64,000 bases of DNA, from NCBI GenBank assembly GCA_029261965.1, contig JAJDAH010000039.1, positions 62,001 to 126,000 of the forward strand, given 5' to 3'. This stretch comes from Polyangiaceae bacterium (lineage in GTDB: Bacteria > Myxococcota_A > Polyangia > Polyangiales > Polyangiaceae). Both the position numbers and the translations under genes were made by a program. This document shows, in pieces, positions 37,227-57,719 of the stretch (position 1 is its first letter; every line of letters begins with the position of its first letter). The notes below the pieces were generated by a model that saw only the letters and a list, made by a program, of their open reading frames with translations, made no database searches and was not told where the DNA came from.

Positions 37227-40200
37227 CTACGCCCTAACCCGCGGCTTGCGTCGAGCACTCGGACCATCCACTTCCGCGAACACCTCACGCAGCACCTTCG
37301 CCGTCGCCGTCTTCTTTTTGGCGACGCTTCGCGCCGATCCCGCGGCCACGACCTTGCCGCCGCGCTCGCCGCCGCCGGGGCCGAGCTCGATCACGTGGTC
37401 CGCACCCGCAATCACCAACGGGTGGTGCTCGATGACAACCAGCGTGTCTCCGCGTTCGACCAGTCGACCCAGCACCTCCATCAACCGCGACACGTCCGCC
37501 AAGTGCAGCCCCGTCGTCGGCTCGTCCAGCACGTAGAGCGTCGGCTCGTGGCGAACGGTGGCGGTGAGCTCGGCGGCCAGCTTGAGCCGCTGGGCTTCGC
37601 CGCCCGACAGCGTGTTCGACCCTTGACCGAGGGCGATGTAGCCCGCGCCCAAGTCGACCAAGGTATCGAGCGGCCTGGCGATCTTCGGATGGTTCTTGAA
37701 GATATCGGCGGCTTCGCTCGCCGTGAGCTGCAGCACGTCGCCGATGGAGAGCCCCGCGTACTTCACGTCGAGGGTGCGCGGCTCGAAGCGTTTGCCGCCG
37801 CAGGTGGGGCACTCTGTGACCACATCCGGCAGAAAGCTCATCTCGTGCGTGATCGAGCCCTGCCCGTCGCACGCTTCGCATCGGCCCCCGGCGGTGTTGA
37901 ACGAAAACCGTGACGCGGCGAACCCCGCGACCATCGCGTCCGGGGTGATGGCGTAGAGCTTTCGGATCTGGTCCCAGATCCCCAAAAACGTCGCCGGCAC
38001 CGAGCGCGGCGTCCGGCCGATGGGAGACTGGTCGACACTCACCGCGCGCTCGAGCGCGCGATGGCCCCGTATCTGCCGGTGCACGCCCGGTTCGTCCGCG
38101 ACGAGGTCGAGCTTTTTTCGAAGCGCGGGCAGCAGCACCTGACGAACCAGCGTGCTCTTGCCCGAGCCGCTGACGCCGGCGACGACCGTGAAGCGACCGA
38201 TGGGAATTTCGATGTCGACGTCGTCGAGGTTGTTTTCGCCAGCGCCGAGCAGCGAGAGGCACTCGGCGCCTTTTTTCGTCGGCAGCGGCGTGCGCACGAT
38301 CGGCGGCTGACAGAACGCGCGCGCCGTCGGAGAAACCGTCGTCGCGAGCACGCGCTTCGGCGGCCCCTCCGCCATGACTCGGCCGCCACTCGAGCCGCCC
38401 CCCGGGCCGAGATCCACCAAGTGGTCCGCGGCGCGGATCGTGTCGGCGTCGTGCTCGACGACGACGACGGTGGAGCCGATCGCGACGAGCTGGCGCAAGT
38501 TGTCGAGCAGCCGCCCGGTGTCGCTCGGATGAAGGCCAATCGTCGGCTCGTCCAGCACGTAGAGCGCACCGGTCAGCCCCGCACCGAGCTGCGCCGCCAA
38601 TCGAAGCCGCTGCATTTCTCCACCGGAAAGCGTGCGCGCGGCTCGGTCGAGCGACAGGTAATCGAGCCCCACGCGTTCGAGAAACTCGAGCCGCCGCCGA
38701 AGCTCGCCCACGACGGGACCGGCGACGAGCGCGCGATCGCCGCTGAACTTCCACTTCACGAGCGCCGCGAGCGCCGCGGCGACCGACCGCTGGGTGAGCT
38801 CCGGGTAGCTCATCCCCTCGAACCGCACCGCCCGCGGAATCGGCGCGAGCCGTGCGCCGTCGCACTCCGGGCACGGCACGTATTCGTTCGTCTTCACCTT
38901 GCGCCGACGCCGCCGTCGACGACCGCGGATCTTGTAGAGCGTCGTCTTCGGGTTCTCTTCGATGATGCCGTTGCCCTCGCAAGTGGCGCAGCGCCCCTGA
39001 GCGGTGTTGAACGAGAACCACCGCGGATCGAGATCCGGCGCCGAAAAATCGCACTTCGGGCAAGAGCCGCGGGTCGAAAACAGCTGCTCGCTCGCCTTGC
39101 CCTTCGCCACGAGCCGGAGCTTCACCGCGCCGTTACCCCACCGGATCGCCCGGTCGAACACCGCGCGGTCGAGCTTCTTCGGCTCGATGGGATCACCGAT
39201 CACCAGATCGATCGTGTGCTCTTTCGTCTTGGCAAGCCGCGGCGGGTTGTCGGTGCCGACGAGCACCCCGTCCGCGATAGCGAGCCCAATCCCGGCGCGC
39301 GCCGCCGCCGTGAACACGTCGAGGTACTTGCCCTTGCGCGCTTTCACGACGGGGGCGAGCAGCTGGTGCTTGCCGCGCACCCGGCGGAGCGTTCGAAACA
39401 CCGCGTCCGCGTTCGTGACCTCACACGGCTCGCCGTGATCGGGGCAGTGCGCCAATCCGAGCTTCGCGTAGAGCAGCCGCAGGTAGTGCGACACCTCGGT
39501 CACCGTCGCAACGGTCGACTTGGGCCCGGCGCGGGTCGAACGCTGCTCGAGCGCAATGGACGGCGGCACGCCAGTCACCGCGTCCACATCCGGCCGCGGC
39601 ATCGTCGGCAAAAACTGCCGCGCGTACGGGGTCAGAGTTTCCAGAAACCGGCGCTGCCCTTCGGCGAACACGACGTCGAACGCCAGCGTGCTCTTGCCGG
39701 AGCCACTCGGACCGGTCACCACCGTCAGCGCCCCATGAGGGATGGACACCGAAATCTCGTCGAGGTTGTGCTCGCGCGCACGAGTGACGTCGAGAGTCGC
39801 GCCAAGGTTCGCCGCGCCGTTCTCGTTCTTCTTGGCCGCGCCGTTCGACGTCCGCCGAGGCGTTACCTCGGGGGCATGCGCGGCACTGCGGGTCTTTTTG
39901 CCGCCCACTTTGGGACTCTTGGCGCTCACGCGGTTGGACCCGTGCCCGTTACCGCGGGTGCCCCCCAACCTGTCCGCGAGGGCCCGACCCGTGCGAGTGG
40001 CGGTCTTGGCGATCTCCGCCGGCGTGCCCGTCGCCACGATCTTTCCGCCCTTGGCTCCTGCGTCCGGGCCGAGATCGACGACGTAGTCCGCCGCGCTGAT
40101 GACATCCAGATCGTGCTCGACGACCACCACGCTGCCGCCGGCGTCGACGATGAGATCGAGCGCGTCGAGCAGCTTCGCCACTTCGTCGGCGTGCAAGCCG

Positions 40201-42737
40201 GCGCTCGGTTCGTCGAGAATCAACAGCGCGCCTTCGTGTTTTTCGCTCAGCGCACGGGCGAGCTTGAGCCGCTGCGCCTCCCCGCCAGACAGCGTCGTGA
40301 GCGGCTGGCCGAGGCGCAAATACCCGAGCCCAAGTCGAGTGAGCGGGCCGAGCGAGCGATTGACCGCCGCTTCGTCGCTGAAGAGGGCGAGGGTTTCGTC
40401 GACGGTCGCGTCGAGCAAATCGGCGACGGTCACGCCGCGGTAAGTGACGCGCAGCACCTCTTCCTTGAAGCGCTTGCCCTTGCACACCGCGCACACCAGA
40501 TGCACGTCGGCGAGGAACTGCATCTCGACGGTCTCCCAACCTTCACCCGAGCAAGCGTCACAGCGGCCGCCATCCACGTTGAACGAAAAATGAGAAGGCG
40601 TGAGCCCGTGAGCTTGCGCCTCGGCCACCCCCGCGAAGCGCTTGCGCACGGTGTCCCAGGCTTTGGTGTAGGTCGCCGCGTTGCCGCGAGAGGTGCGCCC
40701 GAGCGGCGATTGGTCGACGAGGTTGACCCGACTTACCGCCTCGTGCCCGGACAGCTTCCGATGCGCGCCGGGCATTCCGACGTCGAAGTTGCCCGTAGCG
40801 CGAGCGAGCGCTCGGTACACGATGTCGACGGCGAGCGTGCTCTTGCCCGATCCGCTCGGCCCCGTCACGGCGCAGAGAACACCGAGCGGGATGTACGCGT
40901 CGACGTCGTCGAGATTATTCGCCGTCGCTCCCACCACACGAAGCGTCCCGGTCGCTTTACGCGGAACCCGCCCGGCGCGGGACGCCGCGGTCAGCGCACG
41001 CGCCGTCGCGCCGCCCGTTTTCGCCAGCGCTGCCGGCGTTCCATCCCCCACCAGCCGGCCGCCCTCGATGCCCGCGCCCGGGCCCATTTCCAGAACGCGG
41101 TCGGCGGTGCGAATCACCGCCGGATCGTGCTCGACCACCAACACCGCGCTGCCGCGCGACGCGAGCTCGTGAATCATCGTCGAAAGCGGCTCGATGTCCG
41201 TCGGGTGAAGCCCCACCGTCGGCTCGTCCAGAACGAAAAGCGCATTGTGAAGCGACGTGCCGAGCGCCGCGGTCAGCGTCACCCGTTGCGCCTCGCCCCC
41301 GGACAGCGTTCGCGCTTGCCGGTCGAGGGTCAAGTAACCGAGACCCACGCGGTCGAGGTAGCTCAGCCGAGACGAAAGCTCCGTGCGCGCGAGCTCCCCT
41401 TGGCCCGTCGACGTCTTCAGCGACTCGAGGGCGCGCACGGCATCACGAACTTCGAGCCCGTTCCACTCCGCCAGGTTCCGCCCGCCGACTCGATACCGGA
41501 GAGAAGCCTCGTTCAGGCGCTGCCCATGACAAACGGGGCACGCATCGTAGGACCGGTACCGCGCCAGGAACACGCGCACGTGCATCTTGTAGGTGCGCGT
41601 CTCCAGCCACTCGAACCACCCCGCAATGCCGGGAAACTTCCCCTTGCGCCAAGAGCCATCGCCTTCCACGAGCACACGCTTCTGCTCGCGAGTCAGTTTT
41701 GCCCAGGGCACGTCCGTCGGCACACCGTGCCGTTCGCACAGCTTCTTGATCTGCCCGCGCTCCCAAGTCGCGCTCTTCCCGCTGAACGCCCGAATCGCCC
41801 CCTTGGCGATCGTCTTCGAGTGATCGGGGATCACCTTCTCGAGATCGATCCCGATCACGCGACCGAACCCCCGACAGTTGTCGCAAGCCCCCAGCGGCGA
41901 ATCGTAAGAGAAGAGCCCCGCCATCGGCGGCTCGAACGGGCGCGCGCAAGTCGGGCAATTGAGCCCCGCGCGCAACCGATGCCTTTCGGCGTCGACCGTC
42001 AAGTGAGCGAGCTGATGGCCGCGCCGCCAAGCATCTTCGATCCCCGCGGCCAACCGCTTCTCGTCGATCGCTTTCGAGCTGCCGATCGTGAACCGGTCGA
42101 CGATGACGTCGATGATGCCGTCGTTCGCCCGGAGCGCCTCGGTGGGTTTTACCCCGTCGATGTCGCGAGGCTCGCCCTTCATCAAGAGCCGTCGGTAGCC
42201 ATCCTTCGCGAGCACCTCGCGCACCACGAGGTAACCGTCAGTGTCGCCGTCATCCAGACGGATCGGATAAGTCAGGTACAGTTTATCCGCGCGCTTCTTC
42301 GCCTTCTTCGAGAACTCCGCCGCGGCGCCCGCAGCAGCCTGCGCGTCCACCTCGACGGCGGCCACCTCGTGCTCGGGGCAAAACGGAGCCGCCTCCCGAG
42401 TGAACAGCGCCGATAGGTACGGCCCCAAATCCGCCATCGTCGCCACCGTCGACCGCGAGCTCTTGACGGGCGCCCGACGGTCCACCGCGATGCCCGCCGG
42501 CACCGGCTCCAGCCGATCCATCGGCGGCCGCTCCAGCCGTTCCAGAAACTGCCGAGCGTACGGACTGAACGACTCCACGAACCGCCGCTGCCCCTCCGCG
42601 TACAACGTGTCCACCGCCAGCGAGCTCTTCCCCGACCCGCTGACCCCCGTGATCACCACCACCTCGCCCGGGCGGATGTCGACATCCACGCCTCGCAGAT
42701 TGTGAGTGCGCGCGCCGCGAAGGGCGGTGGGCAGCAT
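37227..42737 (-). CDS. uvrA: Double-length UvrA (two fused UvrA proteins)
   Basis: An 1,836-aa protein made of two complete UvrA-like halves (about residues 1-925 and 978-1836) joined by a basic linker (about 925-978). Ordinary UvrA is about 940 aa. All four Walker A motifs are intact (31-39, 626-634, 1009-1017, 1521-1529), as are the LSGGE signature motifs (starting about 478, 816, 1370 and in the last 100 residues) and Walker B motifs (LDEPTVGLHP, LDEPSAGLHA, LDEPTIGLHP, LDEPTTGLHL). Zinc-site cysteines are also in both halves (CDACSG-VCAVC; CEACDG-ECPTC). UvrA normally works as a dimer that finds bulky DNA damage; here one polypeptide could supply both subunits. An Arg patch lies at about 1271-1280. 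It may supplement a normal UvrA elsewhere in the genome. An antisense ORF is a shadow. Confidence 0.92.
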   Translation of the reverse strand: MLPTALRGARTHNLRGVDVDIRPGEVVVITGVSGSGKSSLAVDTLYAEGQRRFVESFSPYARQFLERLERPPMDRLEPVPAGIAVDRRAPVKSSRSTVATMADLGPYLSALFTREAAPFCPEHEVAAVEVDAQAAAGAAAEFSKKAKKRADKLYLTYPIRLDDGDTDGYLVVREVLAKDGYRRLLMKGEPRDIDGVKPTEALRANDGIIDVIVDRFTIGSSKAIDEKRLAAGIEDAWRRGHQLAHLTVDAERHRLRAGLNCPTCARPFEPPMAGLFSYDSPLGACDNCRGFGRVIGIDLEKVIPDHSKTIAKGAIRAFSGKSATWERGQIKKLCERHGVPTDVPWAKLTREQKRVLVEGDGSWRKGKFPGIAGWFEWLETRTYKMHVRVFLARYRSYDACPVCHGQRLNEASLRYRVGGRNLAEWNGLEVRDAVRALESLKTSTGQGELARTELSSRLSYLDRVGLGYLTLDRQARTLSGGEAQRVTLTAALGTSLHNALFVLDEPTVGLHPTDIEPLSTMIHELASRGSAVLVVEHDPAVIRTADRVLEMGPGAGIEGGRLVGDGTPAALAKTGGATARALTAASRAGRVPRKATGTLRVVGATANNLDDVDAYIPLGVLCAVTGPSGSGKSTLAVDIVYRALARATGNFDVGMPGAHRKLSGHEAVSRVNLVDQSPLGRTSRGNAATYTKAWDTVRKRFAGVAEAQAHGLTPSHFSFNVDGGRCDACSGEGWETVEMQFLADVHLVCAVCKGKRFKEEVLRVTYRGVTVADLLDATVDETLALFSDEAAVNRSLGPLTRLGLGYLRLGQPLTTLSGGEAQRLKLARALSEKHEGALLILDEPSAGLHADEVAKLLDALDLIVDAGGSVVVVEHDLDVISAADYVVDLGPDAGAKGGKIVATGTPAEIAKTATRTGRALADRLGGTRGNGHGSNRVSAKSPKVGGKKTRSAAHAPEVTPRRTSNGAAKKNENGAANLGATLDVTRAREHNLDEISVSIPHGALTVVTGPSGSGKSTLAFDVVFAEGQRRFLETLTPYARQFLPTMPRPDVDAVTGVPPSIALEQRSTRAGPKSTVATVTEVSHYLRLLYAKLGLAHCPDHGEPCEVTNADAVFRTLRRVRGKHQLLAPVVKARKGKYLDVFTAAARAGIGLAIADGVLVGTDNPPRLAKTKEHTIDLVIGDPIEPKKLDRAVFDRAIRWGNGAVKLRLVAKGKASEQLFSTRGSCPKCDFSAPDLDPRWFSFNTAQGRCATCEGNGIIEENPKTTLYKIRGRRRRRRRKVKTNEYVPCPECDGARLAPIPRAVRFEGMSYPELTQRSVAAALAALVKWKFSGDRALVAGPVVGELRRRLEFLERVGLDYLSLDRAARTLSGGEMQRLRLAAQLGAGLTGALYVLDEPTIGLHPSDTGRLLDNLRQLVAIGSTVVVVEHDADTIRAADHLVDLGPGGGSSGGRVMAEGPPKRVLATTVSPTARAFCQPPIVRTPLPTKKGAECLSLLGAGENNLDDVDIEIPIGRFTVVAGVSGSGKSTLVRQVLLPALRKKLDLVADEPGVHRQIRGHRALERAVSVDQSPIGRTPRSVPATFLGIWDQIRKLYAITPDAMVAGFAASRFSFNTAGGRCEACDGQGSITHEMSFLPDVVTECPTCGGKRFEPRTLDVKYAGLSIGDVLQLTASEAADIFKNHPKIARPLDTLVDLGAGYIALGQGSNTLSGGEAQRLKLAAELTATVRHEPTLYVLDEPTTGLHLADVSRLMEVLGRLVERGDTLVVIEHHPLVIAGADHVIELGPGGGERGGKVVAAGSARSVAKKKTATAKVLREVFAEVDGPSARRKPRVRA

Positions 42738-42953
42738 GGGGGACAGTTAGGCCTTCGCAGACTCCCCGGCAAGGGGCGAACGCACTCGCAGCACCCATCC
42801 CCACGAGGCAACGCCCGCCGCGTCGTCAGCAGAGATCGCTCGCCCAAAAGATGAGGCTTGATTTTCCCGACGAGCGCTCAGCTGAAACGAGCACGGCCCC
42901 GATCGCCGCGCGCGACGCGTGCGCACACGCGGACAGCACACCGGCCGCGCGGG

Positions 42954-43026
42954 GCACGCGAACGCGCGGGGCACGCGAACGCGCGGGACGTCCGGCCCAA
43001 GATTACGAACATTTTGACGGGCATAC
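42954..43026 (+). repeat. Repeat element copy A: two 17-bp units plus the right end of the 98-bp element
   Basis: Two copies of GCACGCGAACGCGCGGG (42954-42970, 42971-42987) are followed by ACGTCCGGCCC and then the right-hand 26 bases of the 98-bp element (43001-43026, identical at 25 of 26 positions to copy B). The left 72 bases of the element are missing, with the junction directly after the conserved flank. The rest of the gap from uvrA to the next gene (42738-43131) shows no gene. Confidence 0.8.
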
Positions 43027-43131
43027 TTTCGCAAGCTGATTCATGAACCACCGGCGCAGGCAGATCGCGCCGTCCCAACTTCTTCTCTACCCGTCAACCG
43101 ACGCTACACCGCCTCCGAGCGACCGCGAGCC

Positions 43132-43491
43132 TCACGCACACCCGGACCACGTGAATCCGCTCACGCAGCGGGTTCTGCCGTTGCAGTCGGAGTCGTTGTT
43201 GCACACTCGTGTGCATCGCCCCGCGTCACAACCCACGTCACACGCACCATCGGCAACGTCGCCGTTCGTCGTGTCCATGGGGCAACCGCAATCCTCGTGC
43301 GCATCACACTCTACCGAGCAGAACTCCTGGCCCGTGCAGAAGCCCATGCCGCCGCACTGCTTGTCGTCACTGCAGTCGATCCCAATTTTGCTGACCGCGC
43401 TCCCGCTGCCACAGCCAGAAGCCATGCCCAGCGCAGCGGTCGCCACGATGAGCACGACCCTCCCCAGTTTCATCTTCCGTAACTTTTTCAC
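43132..43491 (-). CDS. Small Cys-rich lipoprotein
   Basis: A 119-aa lipoprotein starting at GTG 43491, with AAGGAG five bases upstream. A basic n-region (MKKLRKMKLGR) and hydrophobic core lead to lipobox GMASGC. The mature part has about 15 cysteines with spacing such as CDAHEDCGC, CDVGCDAGRC and CNNDSDCNGRTRC, resembling small EGF- or TIL-like disulfide modules. Function unknown. It is surrounded by repeat elements on both sides, in a gene-poor region. Confidence 0.8.
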   Translation of the reverse strand: MKKLRKMKLGRVVLIVATAALGMASGCGSGSAVSKIGIDCSDDKQCGGMGFCTGQEFCSVECDAHEDCGCPMDTTNGDVADGACDVGCDAGRCTRVCNNDSDCNGRTRCVSGFTWSGCA

Positions 43492-43719
43492 GACGACTCC
43501 TTATCCAACGCGAAACGAGTTCGACGGCTCAGGCCTACGATATAGCGTAGATGCGACGCCGCAATGTTTGTTTACTGTTTCTTCTCCTAAGATTTCGAGG
43601 GCATGGTTTCACCGGCTCGCTCGAGAGACCGAGCAAGTCGGCAAGTCGACGCTCGTTTGTTGCTGGGGACCACGGATGACAAGAAGGCCGCGCTCGTCGA
43701 AAACGTGCGGACGCGCGGA

Positions 43720-43926
43720 GCACGCGAACGCGCGGGACGTCCGGCCCCCGCCCCGGTGGGAGGGCACGCGAGCACGCGGGGCACGCGAGCGCGCGGGGCA
43801 CGCGAACGCGCGCGACGTCCGGCCCAAAGCATCCCCTCCAGAATGTTCGTAGCCCGAACATTTCGACCGGGATAGTCGTCTATGCCCCCCAAAATGTTCG
43901 GATTACGAACATTTTGACGGACATAC
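43720..43926 (+). repeat. Repeat element copy B: 17-bp tandem units plus a complete 98-bp two-hairpin element
   Basis: 17-bp units lie at 43720-43736, 43764-43780, 43781-43797 and 43798-43814; ACGTCCGGCCC follows the first and last. The 98-bp element spans 43829-43926. Its first hairpin pairs AATGTTCG (43842-43849) with CGAACATT (43855-43862); the outer ATCCC pairs with GGGAT. Its second pairs AAAATGTTCG (43891-43900) with CGAACATTTT (43906-43915), a perfect 10-bp stem with a 5-base loop, inside an outer TATGCCC/GGACATA. The surrounding gap 43492-43957 shows no gene. Confidence 0.85.
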
Positions 43927-43937
43927 TCCCAAGATTC

Positions 43938-43993
43938 GCTCCGTCACCGCCGCTCCGTCACCGCCGCTCCGTGACCACCGCTCCGTCAGCTGC
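43938..43993 (+). repeat. 14-bp tandem repeat, four units
   Basis: GCTCCGTCACCGCC and variants repeat four times head to tail (43938, 43952, 43966, 43980). The last units encode the C-terminus of the small minus-strand membrane protein. The repeat begins 12 bases after element B. Confidence 0.75.
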
Positions 43994-44278
43994 TTTCTGT
44001 GCGCGGAACTTGGCTAGATCTTCGTCGGCGGCGGCCAGTTGACGCCGAGCAATGAAATGTGAGGGCCCGAAGAACGCGAACGCGAAAATCGTGGGGAGAA
44101 GCGCCGAGCTGAAGGCTATGTGCGTCTCGAGGTCCTTCGGAGGGTCCAAGGAAATCCAAATGAGCAGAGCGACCGTCATCAATGCTCCGCCGATGACGAC
44201 CATGCGAGCGAGACGGATTTTCTTGGCGGCGTCGCGGCGCTTCTCTTCGAGCTCGGCTCCGTACCCCACGTATCCCAT
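43958..44278 (-). CDS. Small two-helix membrane protein
   Basis: A 106-aa protein with a charged N-terminus (ELEEKRRDAAKKIRLAR), two hydrophobic segments (MVVIGGALMTVALLIWISL and IAFSSALLPTIFAFAFFG) and a charged helical C-terminus (RRQLAAADEDLAKFRAQKAA). Its amino-acid use is natural for a gene and unlike the repeats around it. The C-terminal end lies within a tandem repeat, so its tail length may vary. Function unknown. Confidence 0.65.
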   Translation of the reverse strand: MGYVGYGAELEEKRRDAAKKIRLARMVVIGGALMTVALLIWISLDPPKDLETHIAFSSALLPTIFAFAFFGPSHFIARRQLAAADEDLAKFRAQKAADGAVVTERR

Positions 44279-44454
44279 CGCGCGATTCTACCACGCCCAG
44301 GCACCGCGGTAGCACCGGCCGCTCGAGACTCGCGTGCATCGGTCGAGTCATGACGAGGCCGCTCCTGCCGTCGGGTCGACTCCGTTCTCGGCTTCGCCAG
44401 CCCGTCGTCCGACGCGTGCGATCCGCGCGACGGCACAGCCCGCGCATTGCGCGA

Positions 44455-44551
44455 GTATCCCCCCAAAATGTTCGCAATCCGAACATTTCGACCGGGATAG
44501 TCGACTATGCCGCCCAAAATGTTGCGTCTACGAACATTGCGACGGGCATGG
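44455..44551 (+). repeat. Repeat element copy C (97 bp, two hairpins)
   Basis: TATCCC (44456-44461) pairs with GGGATA (44494-44499) around AAATGTTCG (44466-44474) and CGAACATTT (44480-44488), nine perfect inner pairs with a five-base loop. The second hairpin uses AATGTT/AACATT inside ATGCC (44507-44511) and GGCAT (44545-44549). The two hairpins are separated by the palindrome TAGTCGACTA (44497-44506). No 17-bp units sit beside this copy. Confidence 0.85.
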
Positions 44552-44680
44552 TTGTCGCGGGCCGCGCCCCAACGCCGAGTGCCGATTTTTCGGGGGCGCC
44601 CCACTGAAACGGGCACGGTTCCTATCGCGGCCCGCCACGAGCGCAGAAACTCAACGCGCAACAACCCACGAGAGTCGCGC

Positions 44681-44716
44681 CTGCGCACACAGAAACGCCT
44701 GCGCACACAGAAACGC
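44681..44716 (+). repeat. 18-bp direct repeat, two perfect copies
   Basis: CTGCGCACACAGAAACGC occurs at 44681-44698 and again at 44699-44716, followed by the start of a third copy. It lies between elements C and D, in the same gene-poor stretch (44279-45122), where no convincing coding sequence is seen. Confidence 0.8.
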
Positions 44717-44764
44717 CTGCGCGCCCTTCCATCCCACCAACACGCGCGGAACGCCCCGCCCCAA

Positions 44765-44862
44765 GCATCCCCCCCGAAATGTCGCTCATCGACACATTTC
44801 GACCCACATAGACGCCCATGCCCCCCGAAATGTTGCGCCTGACAACATTTTGATGGGCATGC
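44765..44862 (+). repeat. Repeat element copy D (98 bp, two hairpins with changed stems)
   Basis: The first hairpin pairs GAAATGT (44776-44782) with ACATTTC (44794-44800). The second pairs AAATGTTG (44828-44835) with CAACATTT (44843-44850) over a seven-base loop, inside CATGCCC (44817-44823) and GGGCATG (44855-44861). Compared with copy B, both arms of the inner and outer stems changed together (TTCG/CGAA to TTG/CAA; TATG/CATA to CATG/CATG), keeping the pairing. CGCCCCAA precedes it, much as in copy B. Confidence 0.85.
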
Positions 44863-44880
44863 CTGCCCGCACCCCGCAGT

Positions 44881-45070
44881 ACCGCCCGTCAGCGCACCGC
44901 CCGCGCTGCACCGCCCGTCAGCGCACCGCCCGTCAGCGCACCGCCCGTCAGCGCACCGCCCGTCAGCGCACCGCCCGTCAGCGCACCGCCCGTCAGCGCA
45001 CCGCCCGACAGCGCACCGCCCGTCAGCGCACCGCCCGCGCTGCACCGCCCGTCAGCGCACCGCCCGCAGC
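44881..45070 (+). repeat. 15-bp minisatellite, 12 units, before the FrnE-like gene
   Basis: The unit ACCGCCCGTCAGCGC repeats 12 times, with a partial thirteenth. Two units (second and eleventh, 44896 and 45030) are the same 14-base variant ACCGCCCGCGCTGC, and one (45000) differs by one base. Identical variants at symmetrical places suggest block duplication. The array ends 52 bases before the FrnE start, so it may affect that gene's promoter. All six frames are open over much of it, which produces repeat-protein ORFs that are not genes. Confidence 0.95.
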
Positions 45071-45122: not shown

Positions 45123-45821
45123 ATGACCCAGCTCGACGTCCACATCTGGTCCGACATCGCCTGCCCATGGTGCTACGTCGGCAAACGCCGCTTCGAGCAA
45201 GCGGTCGCCGGCCTGCCTCCGGACAAGACAATCTCCGTCGAGTGGCACGCCTACGAGCTCGACCAGTCCGCTCCGGCGGTGGTGGACACCCGCGTGCCCT
45301 ATATCGATCGCTTGGCGCGGAAGTACGGCGCGACGCCGGCCCAAGCGCAGGCGATGGTCGAGCGCATGGTGGGCGTGGCGGCGGACGCCGGTATCGAGAT
45401 GGATTTCGAAAACATCCAGCCCAGCAATACGTTCGACGCGCATCGTTTGCTTCGCCTCGCCAAGGAGCGCGGGCTCTCGGACGCTCTCGAGGAGCGACTG
45501 TTTCGGGCTTACCTCTGCGAGGGTGCGCGCATGAGTGACCACGACGCGCTGCTGCGGCTCGCCGAAGACGTGGGCATCGAGGTCGACGACGCGGCGGCAG
45601 TTCTCGGCTCGACGGATTTCTCGGACGAAGTGCGCGCCGACGAGCTTCAAGCCGCCAAGATGGGCGTCACCGGCGTGCCCTTTTTCATGATCGGGCGCTA
45701 TGGCATCCCCGGCGCCCAAGAGCAGAACGTGTTCACGCAGGTCATCGAGAAGGCGTTCGCGGATCTTTCTTCAGAGCCGAGCTTGGACGAAGGCGCGGCG
45801 TGTGGCCCGGATGGCTGTTGA
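45123..45821 (+). CDS. DsbA-family protein, FrnE-like, with CPWC active site
   Basis: A 232-aa thioredoxin-fold protein with SDIACPWCYVGKRRFE (CPWC at residues 14-17) near the N-terminus and no signal peptide, so it is cytoplasmic. The helical insertion carries ARKYGATPAQAQAM and FENIQPSNTFDAHRLLRLAK, and the cis-proline region is GVTGVPFFMIGRYGIPGAQ, all typical of the FrnE group of oxidoreductases. It ends ACGPDGC, which adds a second cysteine pair. FrnE proteins act as disulfide oxidase/isomerases and in oxidative stress resistance. The minisatellite lies directly upstream, with no clear promoter between. Confidence 0.9.
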   Translation: MTQLDVHIWSDIACPWCYVGKRRFEQAVAGLPPDKTISVEWHAYELDQSAPAVVDTRVPYIDRLARKYGATPAQAQAMVERMVGVAADAGIEMDFENIQPSNTFDAHRLLRLAKERGLSDALEERLFRAYLCEGARMSDHDALLRLAEDVGIEVDDAAAVLGSTDFSDEVRADELQAAKMGVTGVPFFMIGRYGIPGAQEQNVFTQVIEKAFADLSSEPSLDEGAACGPDGC

Positions 45822-57235: not shown

Positions 57236-57512
57236 AGCGCCGCCCCCCCCCTCCGAAGCATCCACCCGAAAATGAAAGCGAACGTCACATTCCCGGGCAC
57301 ATGCCTACCCATGCCTCTCGAAACGTAACGTTCTCTCTCATTTCGACCGGGATGCTTCCCGCGCCGCCCCCCCCTCCGAAGCATCCACCCGAAGCATCCA
57401 CCCGAAAATGAAAGCGAACGTCACATTCCCGGGCACATGCCTACCCATGCCCCTCGAAATGTAACGTTCTCTCTCATTTCGACCGGGATGCTTCCCGCGC
57501 CGCCACAGAGCG
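57236..57512 (+). repeat. Repeat element copies E1 and E2 (two 98-bp elements, direct repeat of 136 bp)
   Basis: Two near-identical 98-bp elements lie at 57258-57355 and 57394-57491, 136 bases apart, each bounded by GCATCC and GGATGC. In E2, TCGAAATG (in 57455-57462) pairs with CATTTCGA (57476-57483). E2 has a 15-base duplication (GAAGCATCCACCCGA) before it. Flanks (CCGCCCCCCCCTCCGAA) are shared. Length and architecture match copies B-D, but the inner sequence has diverged. The gap 57236-57719 holds no gene. Confidence 0.85.
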
Positions 57513-57513
57513 A

Positions 57514-57547
57514 CGTCATCCCTCGGAACACGTCATCCCTCGGAACA
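57514..57547 (+). repeat. 17-bp tandem repeat, two copies, beside element E2
   Basis: CGTCATCCCTCGGAACA occurs at 57514-57530 and 57531-57547, followed by a diverged third copy. Like the repeats beside elements A and B, it is a short tandem repeat next to the 98-bp element, with an unrelated sequence. Confidence 0.7.
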
Positions 57548-57719
57548 CGTCACCCGTCGAGGAACGTCAGCCGTAGTGACACGGCGACCCAGGCAGCGCG
57601 CGACTCGGCGACCCGCGTGGGAGCTTTCTATGGGCCCACGAACGCGCCTGCCCCAGCAGGCCGAACAAACAACGGTCTACTACGTGCTCAACGGCACCAG
57701 CGGCGGAGTCGGCGGGCGA

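Follow-up and report, generated by a model that had tools for sequence, protein, structure and literature searches.

A dispersed 104-bp nested palindrome with tandem repeats enriched at its boundaries in a Polyangiaceae genome

A conserved nested palindrome of 104 bp is dispersed in 31 copies through the 9.59-Mb draft genome of a Polyangiaceae bacterium, and tandem repeats (TRs) are enriched at its boundaries. We lean, with reserve, toward a reading in two joined parts: that a REPIN-like, non-autonomous mobile element, palindromic in form, has spread across intergenic DNA, and that its ends are sites of recurrent replication or repair trouble at which local duplications are seeded. The starting point was a stretch of 64,000 nucleotides of contig C313 (hereafter the window), in which coordinates equal those of the contig minus 62000.

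The element and its copies

Covariance-model searches with two models, one built from 11 copies and the other from 26, returned the identical 31 places; a hit on contig C336 (E 0.86) was excluded from this number. The sequence-only reading of the window had described a 98-bp element. The element proved real but longer than proposed, since every copy except the truncated C463a measures 104 bp or, in three cases, 103 bp. Twenty-six copies align without a gap across 104 columns, the alignment omitting the three 103-bp copies, the truncated C463a, and the duplicate C313d. The unit has terminal inverted repeats and is built as a whole-length dyad with a smaller palindrome in each half. In the 26-copy alignment, 71.8% of cells are paired along the whole-element dyad (149 cells altered on both sides) and 72.1% along the half-element palindromes (115 cells altered on both sides), whereas 26.7–41.3% were paired in a control in which the partners were slid by 1–3 columns. 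Compensatory changes are present on both dyad axes. The copies diverge strongly in sequence and form at least three subfamilies, with the symmetry kept at two levels, and 27 of the 31 have no overlap with predicted coding sequence. Because some pairs from the same subfamily have no homology outside the 104 bp, the unit has sharp ends; between C282 and C45a, for example, homology is limited to element positions 2 to 103.

The subfamilies differ in their surroundings. On one side, subfamily C has a nearly fixed boundary; on the other, the length of homologous flank varies between 0 and about 390 bp. We also observed members of subfamilies B and C paired about 50 bp apart at loci L047, L050, L037, and L043 (contigs C45, C437, C466, and C187), the B member being partly decayed in C466 and C187. 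Such a pair is followed by a conserved non-coding tail and then by GGTGAN-like repeats, which together make up a larger composite repeat.

Element matches were found in three of 183 genomes of the order, namely the source genome, G023, and G047. The copies in G023 and G047 have the same architecture with different stem sequences. A second double-palindrome type was noticed in G023 (L169, contig C340:627-732), which carries CGATCG near its ends and GAATCACAC stems and has no tandem repeats.

The locus between the UvrA and DsbA-like genes

The window holds two clusters of the element, the first of which lies in the 2385-bp gap between the edge of the UvrA ORF at 42737 and the DsbA-like ORF at 45123. 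All TRs listed for the window by the sequence-only reading were recovered by Tandem Repeats Finder (TRF), and full elements do lie among the arrays as it had stated, with three complete copies and one remnant detected by covariance model and BLAST. At the left of the gap, a 17-bp array (42946..42987, 2.5 units, 100%) lies left of the remnant (42996..43030, plus strand), a right-hand end alone that was found as a BLAST match to the last 27 bp of the query. A second 17-bp array (43762..43812, 3.0 units) stands 13 bp left of copy C313a, a 104-bp nested palindrome (43826..43929, plus strand, 110.8 bits), and a 14-bp array (43937..43988, 3.7 units) stands 7 bp to its right. Copy C313b (44452..44554, plus strand, 103 bp) has no array within 100 bp. 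Copy C313c (44762..44865, plus strand, 104 bp), identified like C313b by the covariance model, has an 18-bp array (44678..44722, 2.5 units) 39 bp to its left and a 15-bp array (44881..45070, 12.9 units) 15 bp to its right, the latter stopping 52 bp short of the DsbA-like ORF. The several repeat families were held to be unrelated; the arrays are not all independent of one another, since the 17-bp array with its ACGTCCGGCCC tail recurs locally, up to three times in all (at 42946, about 43712, and 43762), and the 14-bp array has a homologue at C199. The second cluster consists of C313d (57255..57358) and C313e (57391..57494), both on the plus strand, which form the first and second halves of a 136-bp tandem duplication. 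TRF placed a 17-bp array (57513..57552, 2.4 units) 18 bp right of C313e, in agreement with the 17-bp repeat reported there from the sequence alone.

The UvrA/DsbA-like gap also contains two small predicted minus-strand ORFs that the sequence-only reading had missed. One, called by a codon-usage gene finder at 43132..43491, lies outside the element and is predicted to encode a small Cys-rich protein with a lipoprotein-like start; it has no Pfam match. The other (43958..44278), predicted from the same finder and its translation, is membrane-protein-like. Its 3' end lies within the 14-bp array (43958-43988), so changes in the array would alter its last residues. Regarding the neighboring genes, the UvrA ORF (37227-42737, minus strand) is of double length, with two UvrA modules in one ORF of 1836 aa; three stretches of it match the 1-943 UvrA model, and a match to the 1809-position double UvrA model NF001885 falls below the cut-off. 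The DsbA-like protein has its best matches, at about 52% identity, in metagenome-assembled genomes of Polyangiaceae and Sandaracinaceae.

Tandem repeats at element boundaries

With a TR defined as a TRF hit with a score of at least 50 and a period up to 100, a TR was found within 25, 50, 100, and 200 bp of the element boundary in 13, 14, 17, and 21 of the 31 copies, respectively. Random 104-bp placements gave 2.7, 4.4, 7.3, and 12.6% at the same distances; they were made in 385 element-free intergenic regions (128 kb) from a sample of 1.39 Mb of the 9.59 Mb, chiefly the first 20 kb of contigs, with genes as predicted by the codon-usage finder built in this analysis. The P value for the enrichment within 25 bp was about 5e-13 when copies were treated as independent and about 8e-12 when one homologous array was removed (12/30). 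Stricter thresholds gave 10 of 31 copies against a background of 1.7% (score at least 70) and 8 of 31 against 0.7% (score at least 90). In two of the 13 copies, C52b and C233, the TR is a two-unit duplication overlapping the end of the element, and the other 18 of the 31 have no TR within 25 bp. Both the source genome and G047 are fragmented drafts and several element copies sit near contig ends, so the array lengths are uncertain.

Elements and arrays might simply share a habitat, both gathering in loosely constrained intergenic DNA. TRs indeed occupy 10.4% of bases in element-bearing intergenic regions versus 2.2% in the others, and other dispersed repeats in element-free intergenic DNA show a mild rate (3/31 near a TR, P 0.008 against the elements). 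However, when each element was moved within its own intergenic region, 6.4 copies with a TR within 25 bp were expected and 13 were seen (P about 0.0008), and in element-free regions of at least 1 kb TRs were not more frequent (3.6% within 25 bp), which makes this explanation of the association an unlikely one. Taken together, the within-region test and the difference in TR content indicate that a good part of the effect belongs to TR-rich regions and the rest to proximity to the boundary.

We also compared the element with ordinary hairpins, taken as intergenic perfect palindromes with arms of at least 8 bp and a loop of 3–12. Three of 72 had a TR within 25 bp, which is no enrichment (Fisher P 6e-6 against the elements); two further hairpins were set aside because they overlapped a TR. 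Judged by these and by the dispersed repeats above, neither ordinary hairpins nor ordinary repeats show as strong an effect as the element. The element is, however, far larger than the control hairpins, of which just four have arms of at least 12 bp, and generic instability of any 100-bp palindrome may be the cause. The small hairpins do not attract TRs, and structure alone may therefore not suffice.

A second genus gave a similar picture. At the element loci of G047, a TR with a period of 14 to 51 bp was found within 25 bp at seven of nine, compared with 3.5% in the background (88 intergenic regions, 24.8 kb); the element ends were taken from BLAST matches and may be some bases off. Of 38 matches listed, 13 were read and nine loci counted: the C310 and C103 matches, short and with E above 0.01, were left out, the three copies in C236 were treated as one locus, and the remaining matches were on the opposite strand of counted loci or weak and short. 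The five loci of G023 (C16, C104, C204, C520, and C340) had no flanking TR, and at C104 TRF reported nothing but the element's own halves. The boundary-TR property therefore differs between lineages. The regular association of element and TRs that had been proposed from the window is thus supported genome-wide, inside the same intergenic regions, and in G047; a search for enrichment near the elements across the genome had been suggested as the means of refuting it, and the enrichment was there.

Relation to known elements

The element shares its general plan with REPINs, which are doublets of REP sequences that form hairpins (PMC3116915). It has two inverted palindromic units at fixed spacing, with dyad axes at the center and in each half, and its 31 copies are dispersed and extragenic with unrelated flanks. 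As far as the consulted part of PMC3116915 describes them, REPINs are likewise about 100 bp long, consist of two palindromic halves in inverted orientation that can fold separately or together into a single long hairpin, show compensatory changes, and are extragenic, dispersed, and sometimes in tandem together with flanking sequence. Unlike the REPINs of that account, the present element has only 31 copies, no adjoining RAYT gene, and no evident constant tag of GTAG type, and arrays of short, mutually unrelated units at the boundary, as seen here, do not appear in the same part of that paper.

Candidate transposases were sought in the source genome, which has three Y1 transposase genes. Their products, which are partial, reached at best 36 bits of the 80 needed against the REP transposase model, and no element was found within the three Y1 loci (best E 1.2). 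We therefore rejected the idea that the element flanks RAYT genes. Y1 genes occurred in 17 of 39 genomes searched, with too few element-bearing genomes for a correlation. At the center of the element, 32 sequences gave the tetranucleotide CGTC in 13 cases, GTAG in four, GGAG in three, and none of these in 12. Because no Y1 gene stands beside the element and no constant tag emerged from the sequences read, we call it REPIN-like and not a REPIN. Separately, two of the Y1 transposase ORFs are paralogous, and the start of one of them is immediately preceded by a 10-bp tandem array (L025:1176-1330, contig C8).

Other comparisons were made with sources seen in excerpt, all from open-licence PMC text. 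GTAG and CGTC REP dimers (PMC3733652) are also inverted dimers with the tags inside (tail-tail), and CGTC repeats also lack a linked transposase; in those dimers the stems measure 5 to 13 bp and the tag is part of the definition, whereas here CGTC, GTAG, or GGAG stands at the center of only 20 of 32 sequences. As stated in the same excerpt, the majority of REPs show no association with other repeats. BIMEs (PMC2817692) resemble the present case in that REPs in alternating orientation build composite repeats, and differ from it in that the element keeps to a single unit length and layout and is bordered by minisatellites. The TRs of Borgs (PMC9879509) likewise comprise numerous arrays that arose recently and independently and whose units are unrelated, but a palindromic border element is not mentioned for Borgs in the excerpt of that paper.

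Several further possibilities were rejected. No target-site duplication, a feature of a MITE of a DDE transposon, was detected, the boundary direct-repeat lengths resembling those of swapped flanks. There was no match to an Rfam RNA family at gathering score within the window. A plasmid or phage origin was likewise set aside, the window copy having no match in plasmids or phages; the subfamily C stem pattern had no match in viral contigs or genome contigs.

Order of events at the boundaries

We asked which came first, the element or the array. The element could prefer as its target the edge of existing arrays, themselves stall sites with single-stranded DNA; arrays do start 0 to 18 bp from the boundaries in many copies, and elements of the IS200/IS605 type use single-stranded lagging-strand DNA (PMC6006769, in excerpt). 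Under this explanation, however, a matching unit on both sides should often be seen. Fourteen copies have an array within 50 bp; in none of them did the unit of the array clearly recur in the opposite flank, C187 alone being a marginal case, and insertion inside pre-existing arrays was rejected accordingly. Three copies moreover carry two different arrays, one per side, with units of 17/14, 18/15, and 17/7 bp. Because units differ between copies and between sides, the elements did not land inside ready-made arrays.

Some copies show local amplification after insertion. At C187 a 12-bp unit is repeated about 10 times, whereas the paralogous flanks of C466, C45a, and C437a each have a single related segment. 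In C313e the first 13 bp are doubled, whereas C313d, its tandem partner at 98% identity, has them once. At both C187 and C313e the amplification took place with the element already in place, which together with the lack of a target-site duplication makes a target preference an improbable origin of the association. Homologous 14-bp arrays differ in length, with 3.7 units at C313a and 7.6 at C199, and duplications that include part or all of the element occur at C52b, at C313d/e, and at C236 of G047. Of the explanation first offered for the window, repair slippage at a structured element, the local amplification is shown (C187 and C313e), but slippage driven by structure as such finds no support in the control hairpins or in G023. 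A CGTCA motif common to right-hand arrays was also considered and dropped, as it was seen by eye in few independent flanks and was near the GC-rich expectation.

That the arrays are cargo of a longer element, copied together with the palindrome, is very unlikely: homology between C313a and C199 does cover the element and continues through the right-hand 14-bp array as far as +163, and copies of subfamily C have in common a right-hand tail, 0 to about 390 bp long, that leads into GGTGAN-like repeats, but the units are unrelated in most arrays and C294, C277, and C187, members of subfamily C with a left-end array, carry three different units.

Proposed mechanism

These observations suggest that the palindrome makes neighboring DNA unstable. 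The fragility of long palindromes is established knowledge (reviewed in PMC7999016, consulted in part). In the reading that we favor, boundary trouble at a mobile palindrome, either a replication fork would stall where the element is folded, or the foot of the element would suffer a nick or break; repair would then copy a short adjoining stretch twice, and ordinary slippage would expand the duplicated pair into a minisatellite. At times the duplicated piece would take in part or all of the element. The unit would be whatever flank was present, and units would consequently be unrelated between copies and between sides. We infer that the element is the cause of the stall or break; candidate steps would be fork stalling, a structure-specific nuclease, or an element-specific enzyme.

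A more specific and rather doubtful version is that the palindrome is the recognition site of a strand-nicking enzyme, in which case one-ended copying would move the element and repeated nicking at its foot would give birth to the minisatellite. The feature behind one-ended copying is the near-fixed boundary of subfamily C opposite its variable side. Since plain decay of a longer element could give the same boundaries, we keep this pattern for the nicking version only.

Significance

The founding duplication of a bacterial minisatellite is rarely caught, which makes it difficult to study how such arrays are born. In the present case the site is marked by a defined 104-bp element, and two genera together supply at least a dozen examples with differing units. 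Paralogues with and without amplification can be compared, and a third genome has elements without arrays. Whether a mobile palindrome seeds tandem repeats, and which host or element factor decides this, thereby becomes a testable question. Expression or protein termini could also be altered where an array ends 52 bp before a gene start or reaches into a gene's 3' end. If the nicking version were true, these elements would be natural generators of variable arrays beside genes.
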